DNA of 64,000 bases from Rhizomicrobium electricum (GTDB lineage: Bacteria > Pseudomonadota > Alphaproteobacteria > Micropepsales > Micropepsaceae): NCBI RefSeq assembly GCF_011762045.1, contig NZ_JAASQS010000006.1:62001-126000 (forward strand). Direction: 5' to 3'. A model generated the notes under the pieces. It ran no database searches and was not told the origin of the DNA. It was given only the letters and a program-made list of their open reading frames with translations. This document shows positions 16,612 to 33,608 of the stretch, piece by piece; position 1 is the stretch's first letter; the number at the start of each line of letters is the position of its first letter. Made by a program: the position numbers and the translations under genes.

Positions 16612-17204
16612 GCCTCGATCAGCCCGTGATGACGCAGCGCCGCCAGCAGCGGCAGCAGCGGCAATCCCAGCACGCAGAAGAAATCGCCGCTGATGGATTC
16701 GAACAACTGAGCGCCGCGGCCTTCGAGCTGATAGCAGCCGACCGAGCCGAGCACGAGCTTGCCTTCGTTCTTGAGATAGGCATCGAGGAATTCGTCGGAG
16801 AAAGCGCGCATGCGCAGCGTGGCGCTTTCGCAGTAGCGCCAGACCGGCTTGCCGCCTTGCGCCAGAACGCAGGCGGTGACGAGCTGATGATCGCGGCCGC
16901 GCAGGAAGGCCAGCGTCTCGCGCGCTTCGGCGGTATCGCGGGCCTTGTCGAACACGCGGCCTTCCGAGATCAGCACCTGGTCGCAGCCGAGCACCAGCGC
17001 TTGCGGCGAGGCCTCGGACACATTGAGCGCCTTGGCTTCGGCGAGAGCGTCGGCAAACGTCTTCGCCGCGACACCGTCGCGGCGCAGCGTCTCCTTGATG
17101 GCGGATTCGTCGACATCGGGCGGGCGCACGCCGAACCGCACCCCGGCCTCGCGCAACAGACGGGCCCGGATGCCGCTCGACGAAGCCAGGATCAACATGG
17201 TCAT
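16608..17204 (-). CDS. maf: Maf-family nucleoside triphosphate pyrophosphatase
   Basis: 198 residues. The N-terminal ILASSSGIRARLLREAG motif and VDESAIK are Maf hallmarks; the late VGCYQLEGRGAQLFESISG block looks more like the YceF (m7GTP) than the YhdE (dTTP/UTP) subgroup. Maf proteins hydrolyse modified or canonical pyrimidine nucleotides as house-cleaning enzymes. The ATG at 17204 overlaps the ppsR stop (ATGA). The second gene leftward from the oriC candidate is maf in Caulobacter as well. Confidence 0.92.
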   Translation of the reverse strand: MTMLILASSSGIRARLLREAGVRFGVRPPDVDESAIKETLRRDGVAAKTFADALAEAKALNVSEASPQALVLGCDQVLISEGRVFDKARDTAEARETLAFLRGRDHQLVTACVLAQGGKPVWRYCESATLRMRAFSDEFLDAYLKNEGKLVLGSVGCYQLEGRGAQLFESISGDFFCVLGLPLLPLLAALRHHGLIEA

Positions 17205-18028
17205 CCCTGTTCCTCTTTCGCCAGTTTGTGTTCGGACAAGAGGTTCATGATGGCGGCAGCAGTTTCTTCGATCGACCGGCGGGTCACGTCGATCGACGGC
17301 CAGCCGTGGTATTCGTAAAGACGGCGCGTCGTCATCACCTCGCTGCGGACCTTGTCGAGATCGACATAATCGGTCTCGTTCTGCACGCCCATGGTGGTCA
17401 GCCGGTTGCGCCGGATGTGAACCAGACGCTCGGGGCTTACCCACAAACCCACGATGAGCGGCTTGGTGAAGGTCAGCAATTGTGACGGCGGAGGCATGCC
17501 GAGCACAAGAGGAACATTGGCAGCCCGGATACCCCGGATGGCCAGATATACACAGGTCGGTGTCTTCGAGGTGCGACTGGCTCCTATCAAGATCACTTCG
17601 GCGTGGCCGAGGTCGAGATTGGAGCCGTCGTCGTGCTCGATCATATAGTTGAGCGCCTCCATGCGGTGGAGGTACTCCTGATCGACTTCGTGCTGGCCGC
17701 CGCTGCGGGTGGTGGCTTCGGCGTTGAAGACGCGCTGCATCAGCCCGACCGGGCCTTCCATCACGTCGTAATTGGGCAGGCCCAACAGACTAAGCTGCGC
17801 GACAAGATCGTTGCGCAGTTTGGGATTGACGATGGTGAACAACACCAGGCCGGGGTTTTCCCGAATCCGATCACAGGCCCGCTGCAACTGGCGCTCGCTG
17901 CGCACCAAGGTATAGGCGTGCTGCTGGATGTCGACGCCATGAAATTGCGCCATGGCCGCCTTGGCGACCGAATGCAGCGTTTCACCCGTCGCATCGGAAA
18001 TGAGATGGACGTGAAAGGGTCCACTCAC
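17201..18028 (-). CDS. ppsR: PpsR-type kinase/phosphorylase regulating PEP synthase or PPDK (DUF299)
   Basis: 275 residues from a GTG at 18028, with GAGGAG seven bases upstream. A TTG at 18043 would add five residues but lacks such a site. HLISDATGETLHSVAKA and the phosphate-binding loop GASRTSKT (residues 149-156) define DUF299, bifunctional enzymes that add or remove phosphate on pyruvate-phosphate dikinase or PEP synthase. It is the orthologue of the gene (RP001) that borders oriC opposite hemE in Rickettsia and Caulobacter. It heads the leftward run ppsR-maf-aroE-coaE-dnaQ. Confidence 0.92.
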   Translation of the reverse strand: MSGPFHVHLISDATGETLHSVAKAAMAQFHGVDIQQHAYTLVRSERQLQRACDRIRENPGLVLFTIVNPKLRNDLVAQLSLLGLPNYDVMEGPVGLMQRVFNAEATTRSGGQHEVDQEYLHRMEALNYMIEHDDGSNLDLGHAEVILIGASRTSKTPTCVYLAIRGIRAANVPLVLGMPPPSQLLTFTKPLIVGLWVSPERLVHIRRNRLTTMGVQNETDYVDLDKVRSEVMTTRRLYEYHGWPSIDVTRRSIEETAAAIMNLLSEHKLAKEEQG

Positions 18029-18289
18029 AGATCTGCTCCTCAACTATCCACTTTCGCCGCCGGACTATGCGCATAACCGGGCCGCTGTTCAAACTGTGTG
18101 CCGTTAGGGCCGGCGAGTCACCAGCCCATGCACCGACCCGGCGGCGGCGGCCTCTCAAACCAGAAGCGCAAGCCTTTGAACTCGCCTATACTCTGCGCCG
18201 GGTTCGGAACCCATCCCCCGAGCCTTCCACAATTCACACCCCAAACATCATCTTCAGAATCTTTTAACTTATAGGAGTCTTGTAGTTTG
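18029..18289. other. Candidate chromosomal replication origin (oriC)
   Basis: The 261-base gap between divergent ppsR and hemE occupies the position of oriC in Caulobacter and Rickettsia. The 50 bases 18241-18290 hold only 16 G or C, a plausible unwinding region. GANTC methylation sites occur at 18115-18119, 18257-18261 and 18275-18279. Only weak DnaA-box matches were found: CTATCCACT at 18044-18052 and CAATTCACA at about 18230-18238, each 7 of 9. No perfect TTATCCACA and no paired CtrA half-sites were found. The call rests mainly on synteny, outward gene orientation and nearby parS/parAB. Confidence 0.6.
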
Positions 18290-19315
18290 ATGTCCTTGTT
18301 CCTGGATGTGCTGGCTGGAAAAAAAGCCCGGACCCCGCCTCCGATCTGGATGATGCGTCAGGCCGGACGCTATTTGCCCGAATACCGGGAGGTGCGCGCC
18401 AAAGCGGGCTCTTTTCTGGGCTTGTGCGGCAATCCGGAACTGGCCGCGGAGGTCACGCTGCAGCCGATCCGGCGGTTCGATTTCGATGCCGCCATCATTT
18501 TTTCCGATATCCTGACGGTGATCATGGCTTTGGGCCATGCGGTGACGTTCGACGAAGGCCCCAAGCTACCGCCGCTCGAGCCTCACAGGGAGGCTGTCGC
18601 CGCTCTGCAGCGCGATCCGGCACGCTGGCGCCCGGTGCTCGCCCCCGTTTGCGAAGCGCTCGCCCTGGCCCGCGCTGGGCTCTCTCACGACAAGGCGCTG
18701 ATCGGCTTTGCCGGGGCGCCGTGGACGCTGGCGACCTACATGGCCGGCGGCGGCAACGACGAGCAGAAAGCCGCGCGGTTGTGGGCTTATCGCGATCCCG
18801 AAAGCTTCGATGCCTTGCTCGCCTTGTTGGTGGATTGTGTATCGCAGCATCTGATCTGGCAGTTCGAAGCCGGTGCCGAGGCTGTGCAAATCTTCGACAG
18901 CTGGGCGGGCGGACTGCCGCCGGTGCTGTTCGAGCGCTGCGTGGTCAAGCCGACCCAAGCGATCGTGGAAAAGGTGCGGGCCGCCGTTCCGAATGCGCCG
19001 ATCATCGGCTTTCCGCGCGGAACCGGACTGACCGGGCTTCTGGACTATGCCGAAGCGACCGGGGTGGACGGACTGTCGGTCGATCCCGCCATCGATCTTG
19101 GTTTGATCGCCGCCGCGGAGGGTCCGGTTCTGCAGGGCAATCTCGATCCGCTGGCGCTGGTGGCCGGCGGCGATGCGCTGCGCACGGGTGTGGAAAGCAT
19201 TCTGAAGGCGACCAAACACGTGCCGTTCATCTTCAATCTCGGCCACGGCATCCTGCCCACAACGCCGATCGAGCATGTGCATGAATTGTTGAAACTGGTG
19301 CGAGGCACGCGGTGA
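18290..19315 (+). CDS. hemE: Uroporphyrinogen decarboxylase
   Basis: 341 residues from ATG 18290; a TTG at 18287, nearer the AGGAG at 18273-18277, would add one residue. PPIWMMRQAGRYLPEYR is the family signature, with the conserved Asp in IIFSDILT and a second block GFAGAPWTLATYM. It decarboxylates uroporphyrinogen III to coproporphyrinogen III. It is first of hemE-hemH-hemJ; its stop overlaps the GTG of hemH. Its position beside the oriC candidate is the classical alphaproteobacterial one. Confidence 0.97.
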   Translation: MSLFLDVLAGKKARTPPPIWMMRQAGRYLPEYREVRAKAGSFLGLCGNPELAAEVTLQPIRRFDFDAAIIFSDILTVIMALGHAVTFDEGPKLPPLEPHREAVAALQRDPARWRPVLAPVCEALALARAGLSHDKALIGFAGAPWTLATYMAGGGNDEQKAARLWAYRDPESFDALLALLVDCVSQHLIWQFEAGAEAVQIFDSWAGGLPPVLFERCVVKPTQAIVEKVRAAVPNAPIIGFPRGTGLTGLLDYAEATGVDGLSVDPAIDLGLIAAAEGPVLQGNLDPLALVAGGDALRTGVESILKATKHVPFIFNLGHGILPTTPIEHVHELLKLVRGTR

Positions 19316-20928: not shown

Positions 20929-22212
<1,284 letters not shown>

Positions 22213-22290: not shown

Positions 22291-23673
22291 ATGCGCGGTC
22301 TTTGCGTTTTGTGTGCCGTGGGCTTGCTGAGTTCGGGTGCCTGGGCGAGCGAAGCCCGCATCTATAGTCTCGATCTGAAATACGATCCGGGTTCGGGCCG
22401 GGTGGCGGCGACGGCCGATATCGTGCTGAAGCCCGAGCCGGGCGCCAAGACCGTCACGTTTTACCTGCACGACGAACTCAAGGTCGCTCGGGTCGCCATT
22501 GGCGGCAGGAAGGCGGCGTTCCGCCAGGCGGTCGTGCCTTACGACTACAGCTACGACACCAAAGCCAACAAAATCGTGGTCGAAGCGGCCGGACGCGATC
22601 TGGCGCGCGGGCTCTCGGTCACTTACGCGGGACGATTCTCGCCCTCGGCGGCGCGCTCGCCTTCGGACTATATGCGCGGCGATCGCGACGGACTCTATCT
22701 GCGCTCCTATGCCTATTCGCTGTGGTTTCCGGTGTTCGCCGAAGCCAATGCCAGCTTTCCGGCGGTCGATTTCGATTCCGTGACCATCACCGCGCCGGCC
22801 GAACTCCGCGCCGTGTTCGTCGGCGAAGAAACCGGCCGGGTCGAAAAGAACGGACTAGCGACATCGACGTGGACCGCCAAAGCCGTCGGCCCTTACGACG
22901 CGCAACTGACCCTCCGCCGGTTTGCCGTCGCGCATTGCGGCGGCCTTGCCGCCTATCACCTGACCGATACCGCCTCGAGCGATGCGGCGGGCCGCGTCTG
23001 CGACGAGGCCGGCAAGCTGCTGGCCTACTACACCAGCCATTACCGCGAGACGGCAGGAAACCGCTCCATTCTGCTCGTCCAGGAACCGGCCTATGGCGAC
23101 ATCGCCGGCGCCAATATGATCGGACTGGCCGACCAACGCTGGCGCGAGATCAAGCGCGACGGCGACGAGATCGAAACCCTGGCGCACGAACTGGTGCATG
23201 CCTTCGTGCAGACGCCGACCGCCAAATCCGATCCGCTTTATGTATTCGAGGTCGAAGGGTTCCCGAGCTACTTCCATTTGCCCGCGCTGGCTTCGGTTTT
23301 GGGCGAAGACTGGTACGCCCGCCAGCTCGACCGGATCGAGAAGCTTTATCGCGAGCGGCGCGACACCGGGAAAATGGGCGGCGAAAAAATGCCGCCGGAA
23401 AAACCGATCCTGGCGATCGGGGCGGAAGAGCTTGGAACCTATAAAGATGTGTTCGTGCTCAACGACCGGGCGCTGCTGTTCTGGGATTATCTGCGCCGCA
23501 AAATGACGCCGCAGGATTTCGATGCGCTGGTACGGGCGTTGACGGCGTCATCGGAGGTCACGGCAAAGAGCTTCTTCGCTCTCGTCGCCAAGTACGCACC
23601 GGCACTCGAAGCCGATGCGTATGTGTGGCTCGAAACCAGCGCGTATCCGGAAAAATTCCGCCGGAATTTTTAA
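22291..23673 (+). CDS. Secreted M1-like zinc metallopeptidase
   Basis: 460 residues. A signal peptide ends near SGAWASEA (residues 17-24), and GAGGGGG precedes the start. The N-terminal beta-rich domain resembles the aminopeptidase N saddle. The zinc site HELVH has His299, Glu300 and His303, followed 19 residues later by Glu322 in VEGFPSYF, the exact HExxH-x18-E spacing of M1 gluzincins. The canonical GxMEN exopeptidase motif is not evident (AGANMIG lies near the expected place). It is much shorter than PepN and looks like a periplasmic or extracellular relative with unknown substrate. Confidence 0.8.
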   Translation: MRGLCVLCAVGLLSSGAWASEARIYSLDLKYDPGSGRVAATADIVLKPEPGAKTVTFYLHDELKVARVAIGGRKAAFRQAVVPYDYSYDTKANKIVVEAAGRDLARGLSVTYAGRFSPSAARSPSDYMRGDRDGLYLRSYAYSLWFPVFAEANASFPAVDFDSVTITAPAELRAVFVGEETGRVEKNGLATSTWTAKAVGPYDAQLTLRRFAVAHCGGLAAYHLTDTASSDAAGRVCDEAGKLLAYYTSHYRETAGNRSILLVQEPAYGDIAGANMIGLADQRWREIKRDGDEIETLAHELVHAFVQTPTAKSDPLYVFEVEGFPSYFHLPALASVLGEDWYARQLDRIEKLYRERRDTGKMGGEKMPPEKPILAIGAEELGTYKDVFVLNDRALLFWDYLRRKMTPQDFDALVRALTASSEVTAKSFFALVAKYAPALEADAYVWLETSAYPEKFRRNF

Positions 23674-23945: not shown

Positions 23946-24917
23946 TCAGGGTACCAGAATGGTTGCACCGGTGGTCTTGCGCGAATGCAAGGCCTCGTGC
24001 GCCTTGCGTGCATCGGCCAACGCGAAACGCTGGTTGACCGCGATCTTGACGGCGCCCGAGGCGATGACGGCGAACAGATCGTCGGCCATGGCCTGAAGCG
24101 CGTCCGGCGCGGCGGCATAGGCGAACAAGGTCGGCCGGGTCAGATAGAGCGAGCCCTTCTGCGACAGGATCGCCGGCGAGAACGGCGGCACCGCGCCGGA
24201 GGAATTGCCGAAACTGACCATCATGCCGCGGGGCGCGAGACAATCGAGCGAACCGTCCCAGGTGTCCTTGCCGACCGAGTCATAGACCACCGGAACACCC
24301 TTGCCGCCGGTCGCTTCGCGGACCTTGGCGACCCAGTCGTCCTGATTGAGATTGAGCACCTGGTCGTAGCCATTGGCCTCGGCCAGCGCGATCTTGTCGT
24401 CCGATCCGACCGTGCCGATCACCGTGGCGCCGAGATGCTTGGCCCATTGCCCGGCGATCAAGCCGACCCCGCCGGCCGCGGAATGGAACACGATGGTCTG
24501 GCCGGGCTGGACCGCAAAGGTCTGCTTCAGCAGATACTGCGCCGTCAGGCCCTTCAGCATCCCCGCCGCGGCGGTGTCGAAACCGACCGAGTCCGGCAGC
24601 TTGACCAATTTGCCGGCGTCAACCAGATGCGCCTCGGCATAGGCGCCGACCGCGGCGGTGCAGTACGCCACCCGGTCGCCCGGCTTGAAGGTGCTCACTC
24701 CCTCGCCCACGGCTTCGACGGTTCCCGCCGCTTCGGTTCCGAGCCCGGTCGGCAGCGGCAACTTGTAAAGGCCGGAGCGATGGTAGGTGTCGATGAAGTT
24801 GACGCCGATGGCCGCCGCGCGCACCAGCACCTGCCCCGGACCGGGCGAAGGCAATTCCACATCCTGAAGTGTGAGAACCTCAGGGCCGCCGTTTTTCAGG
24901 ATGCGAATGGCTTTCAT
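23946..24917 (-). CDS. NADPH:quinone reductase, zinc-free MDR family
   Basis: 323 residues from ATG 24917; upstream codons in frame are unlike the family. GVNFIDTYHRSGLY, GTEAAGTVEAVGEGV and the nucleotide-binding HSAAGGVGLIAGQWAK are typical of QorA-like quinone oxidoreductases, and the structural-zinc cysteines are absent. It probably performs NADPH-dependent one- or two-electron quinone reduction. It follows the YyaL-like gene on the same strand, separated from it by a strong terminator. Confidence 0.92.
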   Translation of the reverse strand: MKAIRILKNGGPEVLTLQDVELPSPGPGQVLVRAAAIGVNFIDTYHRSGLYKLPLPTGLGTEAAGTVEAVGEGVSTFKPGDRVAYCTAAVGAYAEAHLVDAGKLVKLPDSVGFDTAAAGMLKGLTAQYLLKQTFAVQPGQTIVFHSAAGGVGLIAGQWAKHLGATVIGTVGSDDKIALAEANGYDQVLNLNQDDWVAKVREATGGKGVPVVYDSVGKDTWDGSLDCLAPRGMMVSFGNSSGAVPPFSPAILSQKGSLYLTRPTLFAYAAAPDALQAMADDLFAVIASGAVKIAVNQRFALADARKAHEALHSRKTTGATILVP

Positions 24918-24979
24918 CGGATTCCTCGTTTGCGTCGTTCTGCAAAATTGCCACCGACTGGCACCGGCCTGCAAAGCAA

Positions 24980-25007
24980 AACGCCCGGCCATCGCTGACC
25001 GGGCGTT
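24980..25007 (-). terminator. Intrinsic terminator of the YyaL-like gene
   Basis: On the minus strand a perfect 9-bp stem, AACGCCCGG with CCGGGCGTT around a 10-base loop, is followed by TTTTGCTTTGC. It lies 23 bases after the stop of the upstream minus-strand gene. Confidence 0.85.
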
Positions 25008-25029: not shown

Positions 25030-27087
25030 CTACTGCGGACGCTGGCCCGGCTGTTGCGGACGCGGCGGCAGTTGCAGCACCTGGCTCAGGGTCACCGGGT
25101 TCGAGATCGGCGCCGAGCAGTTCTGATGCTGGCAGACGTACGCGGTCGGCTGACCGTTCTCCATCGTCTTGCCGCGAGCCGGATGGCCTTCGGGCAGATC
25201 TTCCGACGGATCGACCACCATCAACAGCCGGTTCGGCAGGCTGCGGCCGAGCACGGCGGTGACCAGCTCGCGGGTCTTCGGCGCGTCATGCGGTCCGACG
25301 ATCACGATCTGCAAACCGGCGATCAGGGTTTCGAGCCCGTTGAGGTAGGAGCCCATCGCCATGAACGAACGGCCGACCTCGCCGGCGAAGGTGCCGACGA
25401 TATCGCCGCCGCGGTCGCGATACGCGACGTCGCCGGTGGCCAGATAGAGTTTGGCGTTGACGGTGATCATGGTTCCGTTGGCCGAGGGAACGGCGGCATC
25501 ATAGACGGTGCGCACGCGCTGGATCAGCGCCGCATCGTCGGCCGCGGTCAGGCAATAGCCGCCCGAGGCCGCATCCCAGAAGGACTCGTTCAGGGTGCGC
25601 GTCCAGCGCTTGGCCCAATCGAGGTATTCCTTCTTGCTGGTGGCTTCGAACAGCGTCAGCGCGGCGCGCGCCATGTGGGCATAATCGTCGGCGAACGCGG
25701 CATGGCCGCGCTTGCCGTCGCGCCAGGAGTGGAACAGACGGCCGCCTTCGGCCATCGCCGAAGTGATGAAGGCAAACGCCTTCTCGGCCGCGACCAGCCA
25801 TTCGATATTGCCGTAGGTCGCGCCGGCATTGGCGAGCGCCGCGATCATCATGCCGTTGGAATCGGCCAGCACTTTGTCGTCGCGCAGCGGCGCTTTGCGG
25901 GTCTGCTGGCGGGCGGCGAGCAAGAGTTCGCGCTGACGCTTGAGCAATGCTTCGTCGGCATCGGCCAGCGGATAGGGGAAGCCGCCGGTGCGGGCGATGA
26001 TGTTCTTGCCGTTGAACGGGCCTTCGGCCTGGATGGCGTACACTTCCTTGAAGCGCTGCGAGAAGGTGCCCATCAGGGTGGCGTCGATTTCCGGCGCGGT
26101 CCACAGATAGTAAGCGCCCTCTTCGCCGTCGACATCGGCATCGAGGCTGGCGGCGAAGGCATCGCCCACCATCATGTCGCGCAGCACCCAGCCGATGGTC
26201 TCTTCGACGCGGGCCTTGTACAGCGGCACGCGGTTATGGACGCCGATGGTGGTCAACAGATCGACCATCAGGGCGTTGTCGTACAGCATCTTCTCGAAGT
26301 GCGGAATCAGCCAGCGCTCGTCGACCGCATAGCGGTGGAAGCCGCCGCCGACATGATCGTAGACGCCGGAAAGGCACATCGTGTCGAGGGTGATCTGCAC
26401 GAGCTGCGGGAACTGCATCGCGCCGGTCCTGAGGAACGAGCGCCACAGGGTTTCGATCAGGGCCGCATTGGGGAATTTCGGAGCGCCGGTGACGCCGCCG
26501 TAAAAGACGTCGAAGCGTTGCGCCACGTGGACCGACAAAACGTCGATCAGGCGCGGATCGAACGGTCCGCGCAGATCGCGCGTCCAGATCGCGCCGACCG
26601 CATTGTTGATGTTGGCGGCATCGGTGGCGACGACGTCGGACTGTTCCTTGTACTTCTTGGCGACGTCTTCCAGCACGCGCTTGAACGGCGGCTGGCCGAA
26701 ACGTTCTTCGTTGGGGAAATAACCGCCGACGAAGAAAGGCTCGCCCTTGGGATTGAGGAAGATGGTGAGCGGCCATCCGCCTTGATACCCCATGGTCTGG
26801 GCCGCCGCCTGATAGAGCTGATCGATGTCGGGGCGTTCTTCGCGGTCGACCAGCACCGGCACGTAATTCTCGTTGATGAAGGCCGCGGTGTCGGCGTCGG
26901 AGAAACTCTCCTTGTTCATCACATGGCACCAGTGGCAGGCGGTGTAACCGATCGACAGAAGGATCGGCTTGCCCGACGCTTCGGCTTCGGCCAACGCTTC
27001 CTGGCCCCACGGGGCCCAATGAACGGGATTGTCCTTGTGCAAGAGCAGATAGGGACTGGTTTCCTCGGCGAGACGGTTGGTGCTCAT
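25030..27087 (-). CDS. Thioredoxin-domain protein of the YyaL/SPATA20 family (DUF255)
   Basis: 685 residues from ATG 27087, preceded by GGAAGAAG. The N-terminal DUF255 thioredoxin-like domain has [16 protein letters not shown] and the CHWCH motif (Cys51 and Cys54). It is followed by an (alpha/alpha)6-barrel region, including [13 protein letters not shown] and [11 protein letters not shown], resembling N-acylglucosamine epimerases. The family is widespread, from bacteria to human spermatogenesis-associated protein 20, but its reaction is not established. The C-terminus ends with a Pro/Gln-rich tail and two extra Cys (CQHQNC). Confidence 0.92.
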
Positions 27088-27231
27088 CTTCTTCTTCCGG
27101 TGATGCGCTGGCGCGCGCATTGTTGCGGGACTGATTTGAACCAAGATTTACGCGCCGAACCAAGCGCTCACAAGCTGCCAGGGGGTCGCCTGGGCCTGGG
27201 GCAAGAGGATTGGTGAATTTCGGAGGACCTC

Positions 27232-28556: not shown

Positions 28557-28572
28557 CGTTTCACGTGAAACA
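28557..28572. promoter_or_regulatory. parS centromere site 1
   Basis: CGTTTCACGTGAAACA matches the 16-base ParB box TGTTTCACGTGAAACA at 15 positions, with a perfect 14-base palindrome at 28558-28571. It lies between mnmE and mnmG, about 3.4 kb from parB. Confidence 0.93.
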
Positions 28573-30517: not shown

Positions 30518-31136
30518 TGCGGCGTCGTTCGGACCCGAAGAATTCGCCGAAGCAACCGGCGTTTCACGTGAAACGCTGGACCAGCTTCAGGCCTACGCCG
30601 ATCTTCTCGCCGCCAGCCCCCATAATCTGGTCTCCGAAGCCAGTCTGAAGGAGGTCTGGCACCGCCATTTCCTCGACTGTGCCCAGCTCGTGCCGTTGAT
30701 CCCGCCGGAAGCCCGGACTTTGGCCGATCTCGGCAGCGGGGCCGGGTTTCCGGGACTGGTGCTGGCGATCCTGCTGCGCGAGCGGCTCAAGGTCAGCCTG
30801 TTCGAAGCGACCCATAAGAAGGCGGACTTCCTGGCCTCGGTGGCGGAGCGGGTCGGGGTAAAGGTCACCATCCGCAACGAGCGGATCGAAACCGCCAAGC
30901 CGCAGCGCTTCGACGTCATCACGGCGCGCGCCTTTGCGCCCTTGCCCGAACTTCTCGGCTATGCACAGAGATTGGCGGGACCCAAGACGATTTGCTTGTT
31001 TCTCAAAGGCCAGAGCCACACCGCCGAATTGACTGCAGCGGAACGGACCTGGAAGATGAATATCCGGAAACACCCAAGCCAAACCCATCCGCTTGGCGTG
31101 GTTCTGGAGATCCGGGATTTGATCCATGTCTCCTGA
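30507..31136 (+). CDS. rsmG: RsmG (GidB), 16S rRNA G527 methyltransferase
   Basis: 209 residues. The SAM-binding motif [13 protein letters not shown] lies near residues 70-82. SPHNLVSEA and [11 protein letters not shown] are family hallmarks. It methylates N7 of G527 in 16S rRNA; loss gives low-level streptomycin resistance in other bacteria. The codons for Val-Ser-Arg-Glu-Thr near residue 20 form a perfect parS palindrome. It overlaps mnmG by 11 bases and parA by 11 bases. Confidence 0.96.
30561..30574. promoter_or_regulatory. parS centromere site 2, inside rsmG
   Basis: A perfect GTTTCACGTGAAAC palindrome lies within the rsmG reading frame, about 2 kb from the first site. parS copies inside rsmG near the origin are known from other bacteria. 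Confidence 0.92.
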
Positions 31137-31950
31137 TAGCCCCGCCAAGAAACCGCGCGTCCTGGTGATTGCCAACCAGAAAGGCGGGGTCGGCAAGACC
31201 ACCACGGCGATCAATCTCGGCACCGCTTTGGCCGCGGTCGGCGAACCGACGCTGATCATCGACATCGATCCGCAAGGCAATGCCTCGACCGGCCTCGGCA
31301 TGGCGCGGGCCGAGCGCAAAGTGTCGATCTACGATGTTCTGACCGGGCAGGCGCCGCTGGCGGACGCCATCCATCCGACGCGGATTCCCAAGCTCTCCAT
31401 CGTGCCGGCGACGGTCGATCTGTCGGGCGCCGAACTCGAACTGATCGATGCCGAACGGCGCAATTACCGGCTCAAGGACGCGATCGAGGATTATTCCGTA
31501 CACGGACAATCTCCGTTTTCCTATGCGCTGATCGATTGCCCGCCGTCGCTGACGCTTCTGACGGTGAACGCGATGGTGGCGGCCGATGCGGTGGTGGTGC
31601 CGCTGCAATGCGAGTTTTTTGCGCTCGAAGGCCTGACCCAGCTCCTCAACACCATCGAGCTGGTGCGCGAGAATTTGAATGCCGATCTCGAGCTGCAAGG
31701 CATCGTGCTGACCATGTTCGACAAGCGCAACAAGCTGTCGGATCAGGTCGCGGCCGATGTGCGCGGGCATTTGGGCGACAAGGTCTACAACACCGTGATC
31801 CCGCGCAACGTGCGCATTTCCGAAGCGCCGAGCCACGGCCTGCCGGCCCTGGTCTATGATCTCAAATGCCCCGGCAGTCAGGCTTACATCAAGCTGGCCG
31901 GCGAACTGATCCAGCGCGAGCGCGTCCGGGCGATGGCCGCGGCAGAATAA
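31126..31950 (+). CDS. parA: ParA, chromosome partitioning ATPase
   Basis: 274 residues. The deviant Walker A KGGVGKTT spans residues 19-26, followed by DIDPQGNASTGLG and DCPPSLTLLTVNA, as in chromosomal ParA/Soj proteins. There is no N-terminal DNA-binding domain as in plasmid type Ia ParA. It forms ATP-dependent gradients that move ParB-parS complexes. It is followed 17 bases later by parB. Confidence 0.97.
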   Translation: MSPDSPAKKPRVLVIANQKGGVGKTTTAINLGTALAAVGEPTLIIDIDPQGNASTGLGMARAERKVSIYDVLTGQAPLADAIHPTRIPKLSIVPATVDLSGAELELIDAERRNYRLKDAIEDYSVHGQSPFSYALIDCPPSLTLLTVNAMVAADAVVVPLQCEFFALEGLTQLLNTIELVRENLNADLELQGIVLTMFDKRNKLSDQVAADVRGHLGDKVYNTVIPRNVRISEAPSHGLPALVYDLKCPGSQAYIKLAGELIQRERVRAMAAAE

Positions 31951-31967
31951 CGATGACGGAGAGTGAG

Positions 31968-32825
31968 ATGGCAGAAGACGTCCGCCCGCGTGGGCTTGGC
32001 CGGGGCTTGTCGGCCCTGATCGGGGAAGACGCGCCGCGCTCCGGCAACCGCGCCCCGCGCCAGGTGCCGACCGCCTTCCTGCGCCCCAACAAATTCCAGC
32101 CGCGCAAGACCTTCGTCGACGACGACCTCAACGACCTGATCACCTCGGTCAAGGACAAGGGCATTCTGCAGCCGCTGCTGGTCCGCCCGATTGCCGGCGA
32201 GCCGAACGCCTACGAGATCGTCGCGGGCGAACGGCGCTGGCGCGCCGCCCAGGCCGCCAAACTGCACGAAGTGCCGGTGATCGTGCGCGAGCTCACGGAC
32301 GGGCAGGCGCTCGAATTCGCCATCATCGAAAACGTCCAGCGCTCCGACCTCAACGCCATTGAAGAAGGGCTGGCCTATCAGGAGTTGATGGACCGGTTCT
32401 CCTACACCCAGGACCAGATGGCCGACGCCGTGGGCAAAAGCCGGCCACATATCGCCAATACCATCCGGCTGCTCAAGCTGCCGGAGTCGGTGCGGGTGCT
32501 GGTGCGGGACGGCAAGCTGGCGCCGAGCGCCGCGCGGACCCTGATCGGCGATCCCGATGCCGAAGCGCGGGCGCTCGAAATCGTCGCCGGCGGACTGAAT
32601 GTGCGTCAGGCCGAACAGCGTTCAAAAGAGAAAAAGCCGGGCAAGAAGGCCGCCGCCAAGCCGGCCGCGGAAGACCCCAACATCAAAGAGCTGGAAGTCA
32701 GCCTCGCCAACATCTTGGGGCTCAAAGTTCAGATTGTGGATAAAGGTGAGGCGGGCGAAGTCCGGATTCTCTATAAAACCCTGGAACAGCTCGACGATCT
32801 CATCCTGCGGTTGAAGAAGTACTGA
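31968..32825 (+). CDS. parB: ParB, chromosome partitioning CTPase/DNA-binding protein
   Basis: 285 residues from ATG 31968, preceded by GGAG at six bases; an upstream in-frame ATG at 31953 lacks a ribosome site. RGLGRGLSALIGE is the ParA-interacting N-terminus. The CTP-binding domain has GERRWRAA and ENVQRSDLN. The helix-turn-helix follows (QMADAVGKSRPHIANTIRLL), and the C-terminal dimer domain ends LDDLILRLKKY. It binds the parS sites at 28557 and 30561 and spreads as a CTP-driven clamp. Confidence 0.97.
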   Translation: MAEDVRPRGLGRGLSALIGEDAPRSGNRAPRQVPTAFLRPNKFQPRKTFVDDDLNDLITSVKDKGILQPLLVRPIAGEPNAYEIVAGERRWRAAQAAKLHEVPVIVRELTDGQALEFAIIENVQRSDLNAIEEGLAYQELMDRFSYTQDQMADAVGKSRPHIANTIRLLKLPESVRVLVRDGKLAPSAARTLIGDPDAEARALEIVAGGLNVRQAEQRSKEKKPGKKAAAKPAAEDPNIKELEVSLANILGLKVQIVDKGEAGEVRILYKTLEQLDDLILRLKKY

Positions 32826-32833
32826 TAACAGAC

Positions 32834-32842
32834 TTATCCACA
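32834..32842 (+). promoter_or_regulatory. Consensus DnaA box after parB
   Basis: TTATCCACA, a perfect 9-of-9 DnaA box, lies 9 bases after the parB stop. It is a single copy, so it is more likely a titration or regulatory site than an origin. Confidence 0.55.
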
Positions 32843-32884
32843 ACACAATATATAGGAATATGACGAGAACCTATATGTTGTGTT
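32842..32884. terminator. AT-rich inverted repeat between parB and hisA
   Basis: Arms of 15 bases (32842-32856 and 32870-32884) are complementary with one mismatch around a 13-base loop. The repeat lies between two convergent genes and includes the hisA stop. It may act as a bidirectional terminator, although it lacks GC pairs and a clear T-run. Confidence 0.5.
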
Positions 32885-33608
32885 CACTCTCGCAGAGCTT
32901 GAGCGCCATCGCCGGATTGATACGGCCGTCGTAAAGCGCGCGGCCGACCACCACCCCCTCGATATTGGGCTCGTTGACGGCAATCAGGTCTTCGATGTCG
33001 CCGATGGCCGAGACGCCGCCGGAGGCGATCACCGGAATGGATAGGGAACGCGCCAAAGCTGCCGTTGCGGCAACATTGACGCCGGTGAGCAGGCCGTCGC
33101 GATCGACGTCGGTATAGAGAACCGCCGCGACCCCGGCATCCTCGAAACGCTTGCCGAGATCGACCGGCGACAGGTCGGAGGTTTCGGCCCAGCCCTCGGT
33201 AGCGATCTTGCCGCCTTTGGCATCGGCGCCGACCACGATCTGCCCCGGAAAGGCGCGAGCCGCTTCCTTGACCAGCGCCGGATTGGTGAGCGCGACGGTC
33301 CCCAGGATGACGCGGGTGATCCCGGCCTCGAGCCAGGCGGCGATCCCCTTCATGTCGCGAATGCCGCCGCCGAGTTCGATCGGCAGATCGATGGCGGAGC
33401 GGATCGCGGCCACCGCCTCGGCATTGACCGAGCGGCCTTCGAAGGCGCCGTTGAGATCGACGCAGTGCAGCCATTGGAAGCCGGCGTCGGCAAAGCTTTT
33501 CGCCTGGGCGGCGGGATCGTCGTTGAACACCGTGGCGGTATTCATCAAGCCGCGCTGCAAGCGCACGCAGCGGCCGTCTTTGAGATCGATGGCGGGAAAC
33601 AGGATCAC
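32871..33608 (-). CDS. hisA: HisA, ProFAR isomerase
   Basis: 245 residues from a GTG at 33608 that overlaps the hisH stop (GTGA). The TIM barrel has the catalytic Asp8 in FPAIDLKDG, the phosphate-binding GGGIRD, VGADAK and YTDVDRDG with the second catalytic Asp, and a closing ASGGVSA. It isomerises ProFAR to PRFAR in histidine synthesis. The frame is open far upstream, but the GTG matches the family N-terminus. hisF, its usual partner downstream, is not in this window. Confidence 0.95.

Follow-up and report, generated by a model that had tools for sequence, protein, structure and literature searches.

A predicted compact hemE/COG1806-type origin of replication in Rhizomicrobium electricum

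Does the short gap between ppsR and hemE in Rhizomicrobium electricum hold the chromosomal origin of replication (oriC)? This gene pair (COG1806 and hemE) flanks the experimentally mapped origin of Caulobacter (Cori) and the predicted origin of Rickettsia (PMC1914354). From that shared position an earlier note proposed an origin here, and the position proved to be the same. No description of an origin for the Rhizomicrobium-like group turned up in the literature searched. The DNA analyzed, hereafter the window, is a 64-kb stretch covering bases 62001-126000 of contig C6 (375,169 bp) in a genome of 4.73 Mb and 16 contigs. From its sequence, the gap at 18029-18289 is predicted to be an oriC of the alphaproteobacterial hemE/COG1806 type, with a probability of about 0.85. 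It is read as an origin because its position, a conserved element, the weakest 25-bp duplex, nearby parS sites, and a switch in the polarity of the octamer GGGCAGGG agree.

Gene neighbourhood and strand polarity

The genes and segregation sites around the gap are as follows.

17204-18028, minus strand: ppsR (Kinase-PPPase, COG1806/DUF299; PF03618, E 9e-84)
18029-18289: ppsR-hemE intergenic region, candidate oriC, 261 bp
18290-19315, plus strand: hemE (uroporphyrinogen decarboxylase; PF01208, E 2e-102)
28557-28572, plus strand: parS-like site CGTTTCACGTGAAACA, a palindrome with a GTTTCACGTGAAAC core
30560-30575, plus strand: parS-like site CGTTTCACGTGAAACG, a palindrome with a GTTTCACGTGAAAC core
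31126-32825, plus strand: parA and parB (NCBIfam ParA/MinD-type and parB_part matches)

The gap between a DUF299-type gene and hemE is real, with ppsR starting at about 18028 on the minus strand and hemE at 18287/18290 on the plus strand. Its AT content is 0.44, compared to 0.35 window-wide. To the left, maf, aroE, coaE, and dnaQ all lie on the minus strand. To the right, hemE is followed by hemH, hemJ, and rho on the plus strand. The 14 kb of outward genes described in the earlier note was an error, as the right-hand run extends only about 4 kb, to the end of rho at 22212. An alcohol dehydrogenase gene (23946-24992) and a DUF255 gene (25030-27144), both on the minus strand, point back toward the gap, and beyond them mnmE-mnmG-rsmG-parA-parB are found on the plus strand. 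The note had also placed parS and parAB 10-14 kb away, which agrees with two parS-like sites 10-12 kb from the gap, a parA start at 31126, and a parB end at 32825. Elsewhere in the window, a 460-aa open frame without a Pfam match lies between rho and the alcohol dehydrogenase gene (22291-23673), and the segment 52000-62000 has a GC content of 0.68-0.71 and a GC skew of about +0.05, against about 0.64 GC elsewhere in the window.

GC skew was examined on C6 and in the complete relative G028, there in 40 samples of 20 kb each spread over the genome, and was found to be weak, flat, or noisy with no clear minimum. Being weak and at odds with the polarity of GGGCAGGG, it was disregarded in locating the origin. 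GGGCAGGG is one form of KOPS, the E. coli octamer that points from origin to terminus (PMC2680272). No octamer in G028 has a stronger strand bias (51:10), and on contigs C1 and C2 of the present genome nearly all copies of GGGCAGGG share one orientation. On C6 its polarity turns from minus to plus between 57 and 147 kb, an interval containing the gap at 80.0 kb as well as the parB-hisA junction at 94.8 kb. A fit to G028 placed the terminus at 1.28-1.38 Mb, roughly opposite the gap at 3.516 Mb, and the best origin at 3.54-3.90 Mb, slightly to one side of it; of 79 sites, 16 were misfits for the best origin and 19 for the gap, and sites near the origin were mixed in polarity. The polarity of GGGCAGGG thus puts the origin in the right region but is too coarse to tell the gap from adjacent sequence. 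When CATAAN6TTATG was used to look for dif, this genome yielded no convincing site and G028 none at all. A dnaA-linked origin was considered and set aside, as no cluster of boxes lies near dnaA, which is on contig C2.

A conserved box-triplet element in the gap

Within the gap, the following sites were recorded.

18044-18052, plus strand: DnaA-box-like CTATCCACT, two mismatches to TTATNCACA
18068-18076, minus strand: DnaA-box-like TTATGCGCA, one mismatch to TTATNCACA, the best match in the gap
18223-18231, plus strand: DnaA-box-like CCTTCCACA, the upstream site of the conserved element, from the alignment
18230-18238, plus strand: downstream DnaA-box-like site CAATTCACA, two mismatches to TTATNCACA
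18239-18243, plus strand: C-rich spacer CCCCA
18244-18255, plus strand: triplet tract AAC-ATC-ATC-TTC, DnaA-trio-like, with period-3 C in relatives
18249-18273: duplex-unwinding candidate, the weakest 25-bp duplex of the window in a nearest-neighbour scan
18257-18261: GANTC (GAATC), within the AT-rich stretch
18275-18279: GANTC (GAGTC), overlapping the hemE Shine-Dalgarno AGGAG and kept in nearly all relatives

A feature overlooked in the earlier note is a conserved element at 18225-18255 that reads TTCCACA-ATTCACA-CCCCA-AAC-ATC-ATC-TTC and is followed by AGAATCTTTTAACTTATAG. Two DnaA-box-like sites are succeeded by a C-rich spacer and four WWC triplets, which run into an AT-rich stretch. The 18230 site is offset by 7 bp from the 18223 site, so that two standard 9-bp footprints would overlap; a matrix derived from outgroups (below) places its match at 18229. 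The note had called the DnaA boxes weak, and indeed no TTATCCACA with one mismatch or fewer and no box closer than one mismatch to TTATNCACA was found in the gap. The TCCAC core of the 18044 site is nevertheless aligned at the same place in many relatives, and GCATAAC of the 18068 site is kept in closer ones. DnaA carries the canonical GGRDHTTV box-reading motif. Genome-wide (4.7 Mb), TTATCCACA occurs six times against 36 copies of its reversed control, a depletion of about six-fold that would fit a DnaA recognizing the consensus box. Other observations of the note also stood: the gap contains three GANTC sites (the third at 18115) and lacks a paired CtrA site (TTAA-N7-TTAA). Its AT-rich patch goes beyond composition, as the weakest 25-bp duplex of the window starts at 18249, within the triplet tract itself. 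The suggestion that such an origin would be compact or use atypical boxes holds on both counts, the gap being short and its boxes degenerate.

Named relatives, retrieved by way of mnmE, are for the most part uncultured Alphaproteobacteria, and the closer ones include a Rhizomicrobium sp. MAG; those found for the Rhizomicrobium-like group are almost all metagenome-assembled genomes. The ppsR-hemE or ppsR-hemH gaps of relatives were extracted and 31 non-redundant ones were aligned. The element was found to be near-constant, at near-fixed spacing, in the hemE-proximal third of the gap. When the 31 sequences were aligned on the second CACA, the third base of the successive triplets was C at frequencies of 1.00, 1.00, 0.81, and 0.84, compared to at most 0.13 at the eight columns in between. 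The mean over the triplet columns (0.91) lies far above the mean (0.31) and maximum (0.43) of 2000 shuffles. Identity to moderately diverged relatives reaches 68% over the 70 nt before hemE; the corresponding figures are 54% upstream of rho, 45% upstream of mnmE, and 34% once the sequence is shuffled. The size of the gap in the group is about 214-320 bp, compared to 383-556 bp in most outgroups.

The pattern of two sites plus four triplets has a single match in the 375-kb contig C6 (at 80226, in the gap) and a single match in 1.05 Mb sampled from G028 (in the ppsR gap); as the pattern was read from these very gaps, the matches show uniqueness rather than discovery. A less circular test used a 28-position matrix built from outgroup orders only (Azospirillales, Rhodospirillales, and others), the hand alignment of its rows being a weakness. 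When the first 306 kb of C6 (about 612,000 positions) were scanned, this matrix ranked the site in the gap 11th, and it also matched the corresponding place in most relatives. In the outgroup gaps themselves, TTATCCACA or ATCCCCA boxes are followed by triplet tracts such as ACTACAACAACAACTAC. The exact motif TCCACAANTCACAG was tried as a marker and found too strict, occurring in 8 of 41 genomes; it is missing here because CACAC replaces CACAG.

The parB-hisA junction and the hem leader as rival readings

The main rival within the window lies 14.6 kb from the gap, and was likewise overlooked in the earlier note.

32735-32842: two perfect TTATCCACA boxes (32735, minus strand; 32834, plus strand) at the parB-hisA junction, adjoining a 15-bp hairpin

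These are the only perfect DnaA boxes of the window, and with two of the six genomic copies of TTATCCACA placed 99 bp apart, the junction is a serious rival. The working origin would then be located here (about 32730-32890), with the ppsR-hemE gap as a decaying ancestral origin. The two boxes flank an AT-rich stretch, the weakest 40-60 bp duplex of the window is at this junction, and the outgroup matrix ranks the parB-hisA box 6th, above the site in the gap. Moreover, TTATCCACA is kept after parB in L046, L048, L049, L054, and G010, and appears as TTATACACA in G028. Against this, about half of the relatives with data lack the box, no triplet tract was found at the junction, and the box at 32735 falls within the parB coding sequence. 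The AT-rich stretch (within 32735-32886) is a 15-bp hairpin between the convergent genes parB and hisA and resembles a terminator, and the element in the gap is strongly conserved instead of decaying. A working origin at the junction is judged very improbable. It is possible, although only tentatively proposed, that these boxes form an accessory DnaA site (for titration, re-activation, or a DnaA-controlled terminator) while oriC lies in the gap. The recurrent, if not universal, conservation of a box near parB favours this putative function, which is compatible with oriC in the gap; chance plus coding constraint could produce the same picture. L046 and contig C3 of G007 differ from the window in that the mnmE-hisH block is flipped with respect to the ppsR-rho block; the gap and the parB-hisA boxes are both retained there.

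On a different reading, the conserved element would have no bearing on replication and would instead serve to regulate the hem operon, as its promoter and 5' untranslated leader. It lies 30-70 nt before the start of hemE or hemH, adjoins a conserved promoter-like CTTGAGTC and the Shine-Dalgarno, and is always upstream of a hem gene, so that a leader function is not wholly separable. Six relatives bear on this (G028, G029, G022, G025, G014, and G011; L187-L192). In these, hemH follows the ppsR gap and hemE is found elsewhere, in G028 at 2.07 Mb compared to 3.52 Mb for ppsR (1.4 Mb apart). The displaced gene is the sole hemE match in each of the six genomes and is about 52% identical to that of the window. 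The element is still present in all six ppsR-hemH gaps, and the 300 nt preceding each displaced hemE contain neither TCCACA nor TCACAG. The element stays with ppsR when hemE moves away, which speaks against a leader specific to hemE. For a leader of the hem operon as a whole the case is less clear-cut, since hemH still adjoins the gap. The layout of DnaA box, DnaA box, triplets, and AT-rich stretch is however common to outgroups, where the elements lie about 100 nt from hemE and often have perfect boxes. A role confined to hem regulation is considered extremely unlikely, even more so than a working origin at the junction. An RNA leader or riboswitch in the gap was rejected, with no Rfam match and no significant fold.

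Comparison with known origins and a possible mechanism

The gap is most likely a compact member of the Caulobacter-type hemE/COG1806 origins, its points of interest being compactness and degenerate boxes. It shares with Cori of Caulobacter crescentus the flanking genes, an AT-rich stretch, and parS/parAB close by (PMC1914354; PMC4468827), and in both the DnaA sites, here candidates, are weak rather than consensus (PMC4468827). Conversely, the Caulobacter gap is >400 bp compared to 261 bp here, and neither the Cori-type CtrA pair nor the TGATCCACA-type G-box of Cori is found in the gap. Some accepted hemE-type origins also lack TTAA-N7-TTAA (PMC1914354), and the CtrA pair is therefore not a required feature. 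The predicted origin of Rickettsia prowazekii (RP001-hemE) has the same gene pair (PMC1914354), but its gap is 384 bp and 83% AT, compared to 261 bp and 44% AT here. The hemE-ppsR gaps of Azospirillum and Nitrospirillum (L073, L118, and others) similarly place a box before C-containing triplets and an AT-rich stretch, but are about 420-560 bp long and mostly contain perfect TTATCCACA. In L101 and L105 the box-like pair is offset by 9 bp instead of 7 bp.

The arrangement, in which tandem boxes are followed by a G+C spacer, a period-3 tract, and an AT-rich stretch, is also that of the Bacillus subtilis basal unwinding system (BUS; DnaA-box 6/7 plus DnaA-trios). A published search rule for the BUS calls for one or two DnaA boxes, a spacer of at most 16 bp, and at least three NAN trios read 3' to 5' (PMC8287927). 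In the gap, CAATTCACA (two mismatches) is followed by an 8-bp spacer and by 3'-TAG-TAG-AAG-5' from 18247-18255, a pattern that is loose when taken alone; the three trios lie within 16 bp of the box, as in B. subtilis, here on the complementary strand (PMC8287927). The period-3 tract is moreover conserved across relatives. In contrast to B. subtilis, the boxes here are degenerate and offset by 7 bp. On the box strand the triplets here read WWC, so the trio's middle A varies among relatives, and what stays constant is a C at every third base of that strand.

A mechanism can be proposed from these likenesses. DnaA assembly would begin at the two weak tandem sites (18223-18238), with help from the weak sites near 18044 and 18068, and continue over the WWC triplet tract (18244-18255) as an ATP-dependent filament. 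The AT-rich stretch at 18249-18289 would then be opened and the helicase loaded there. Forks would leave bidirectionally, with the nearby parS/ParAB moving the new origins, and GANTC methylation may time the re-use of the origin. A more far-reaching scenario, regarded as unlikely, is that this lineage reduced oriC to a gap of ~214-320 bp in which fused degenerate DnaA sites (overlapping 9-mers offset by 7 bp, not 9) and the WWC tract carry out the unwinding, while the perfect boxes were relocated to the end of parB as an accessory site linking initiation with segregation.

For the Rhizomicrobium-like group, the element offers a signature for locating origins that does not depend on GC skew. 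The triplet tract and its spacing are retained where the consensus DnaA boxes are lost, and even where hemE is no longer next to the gap.
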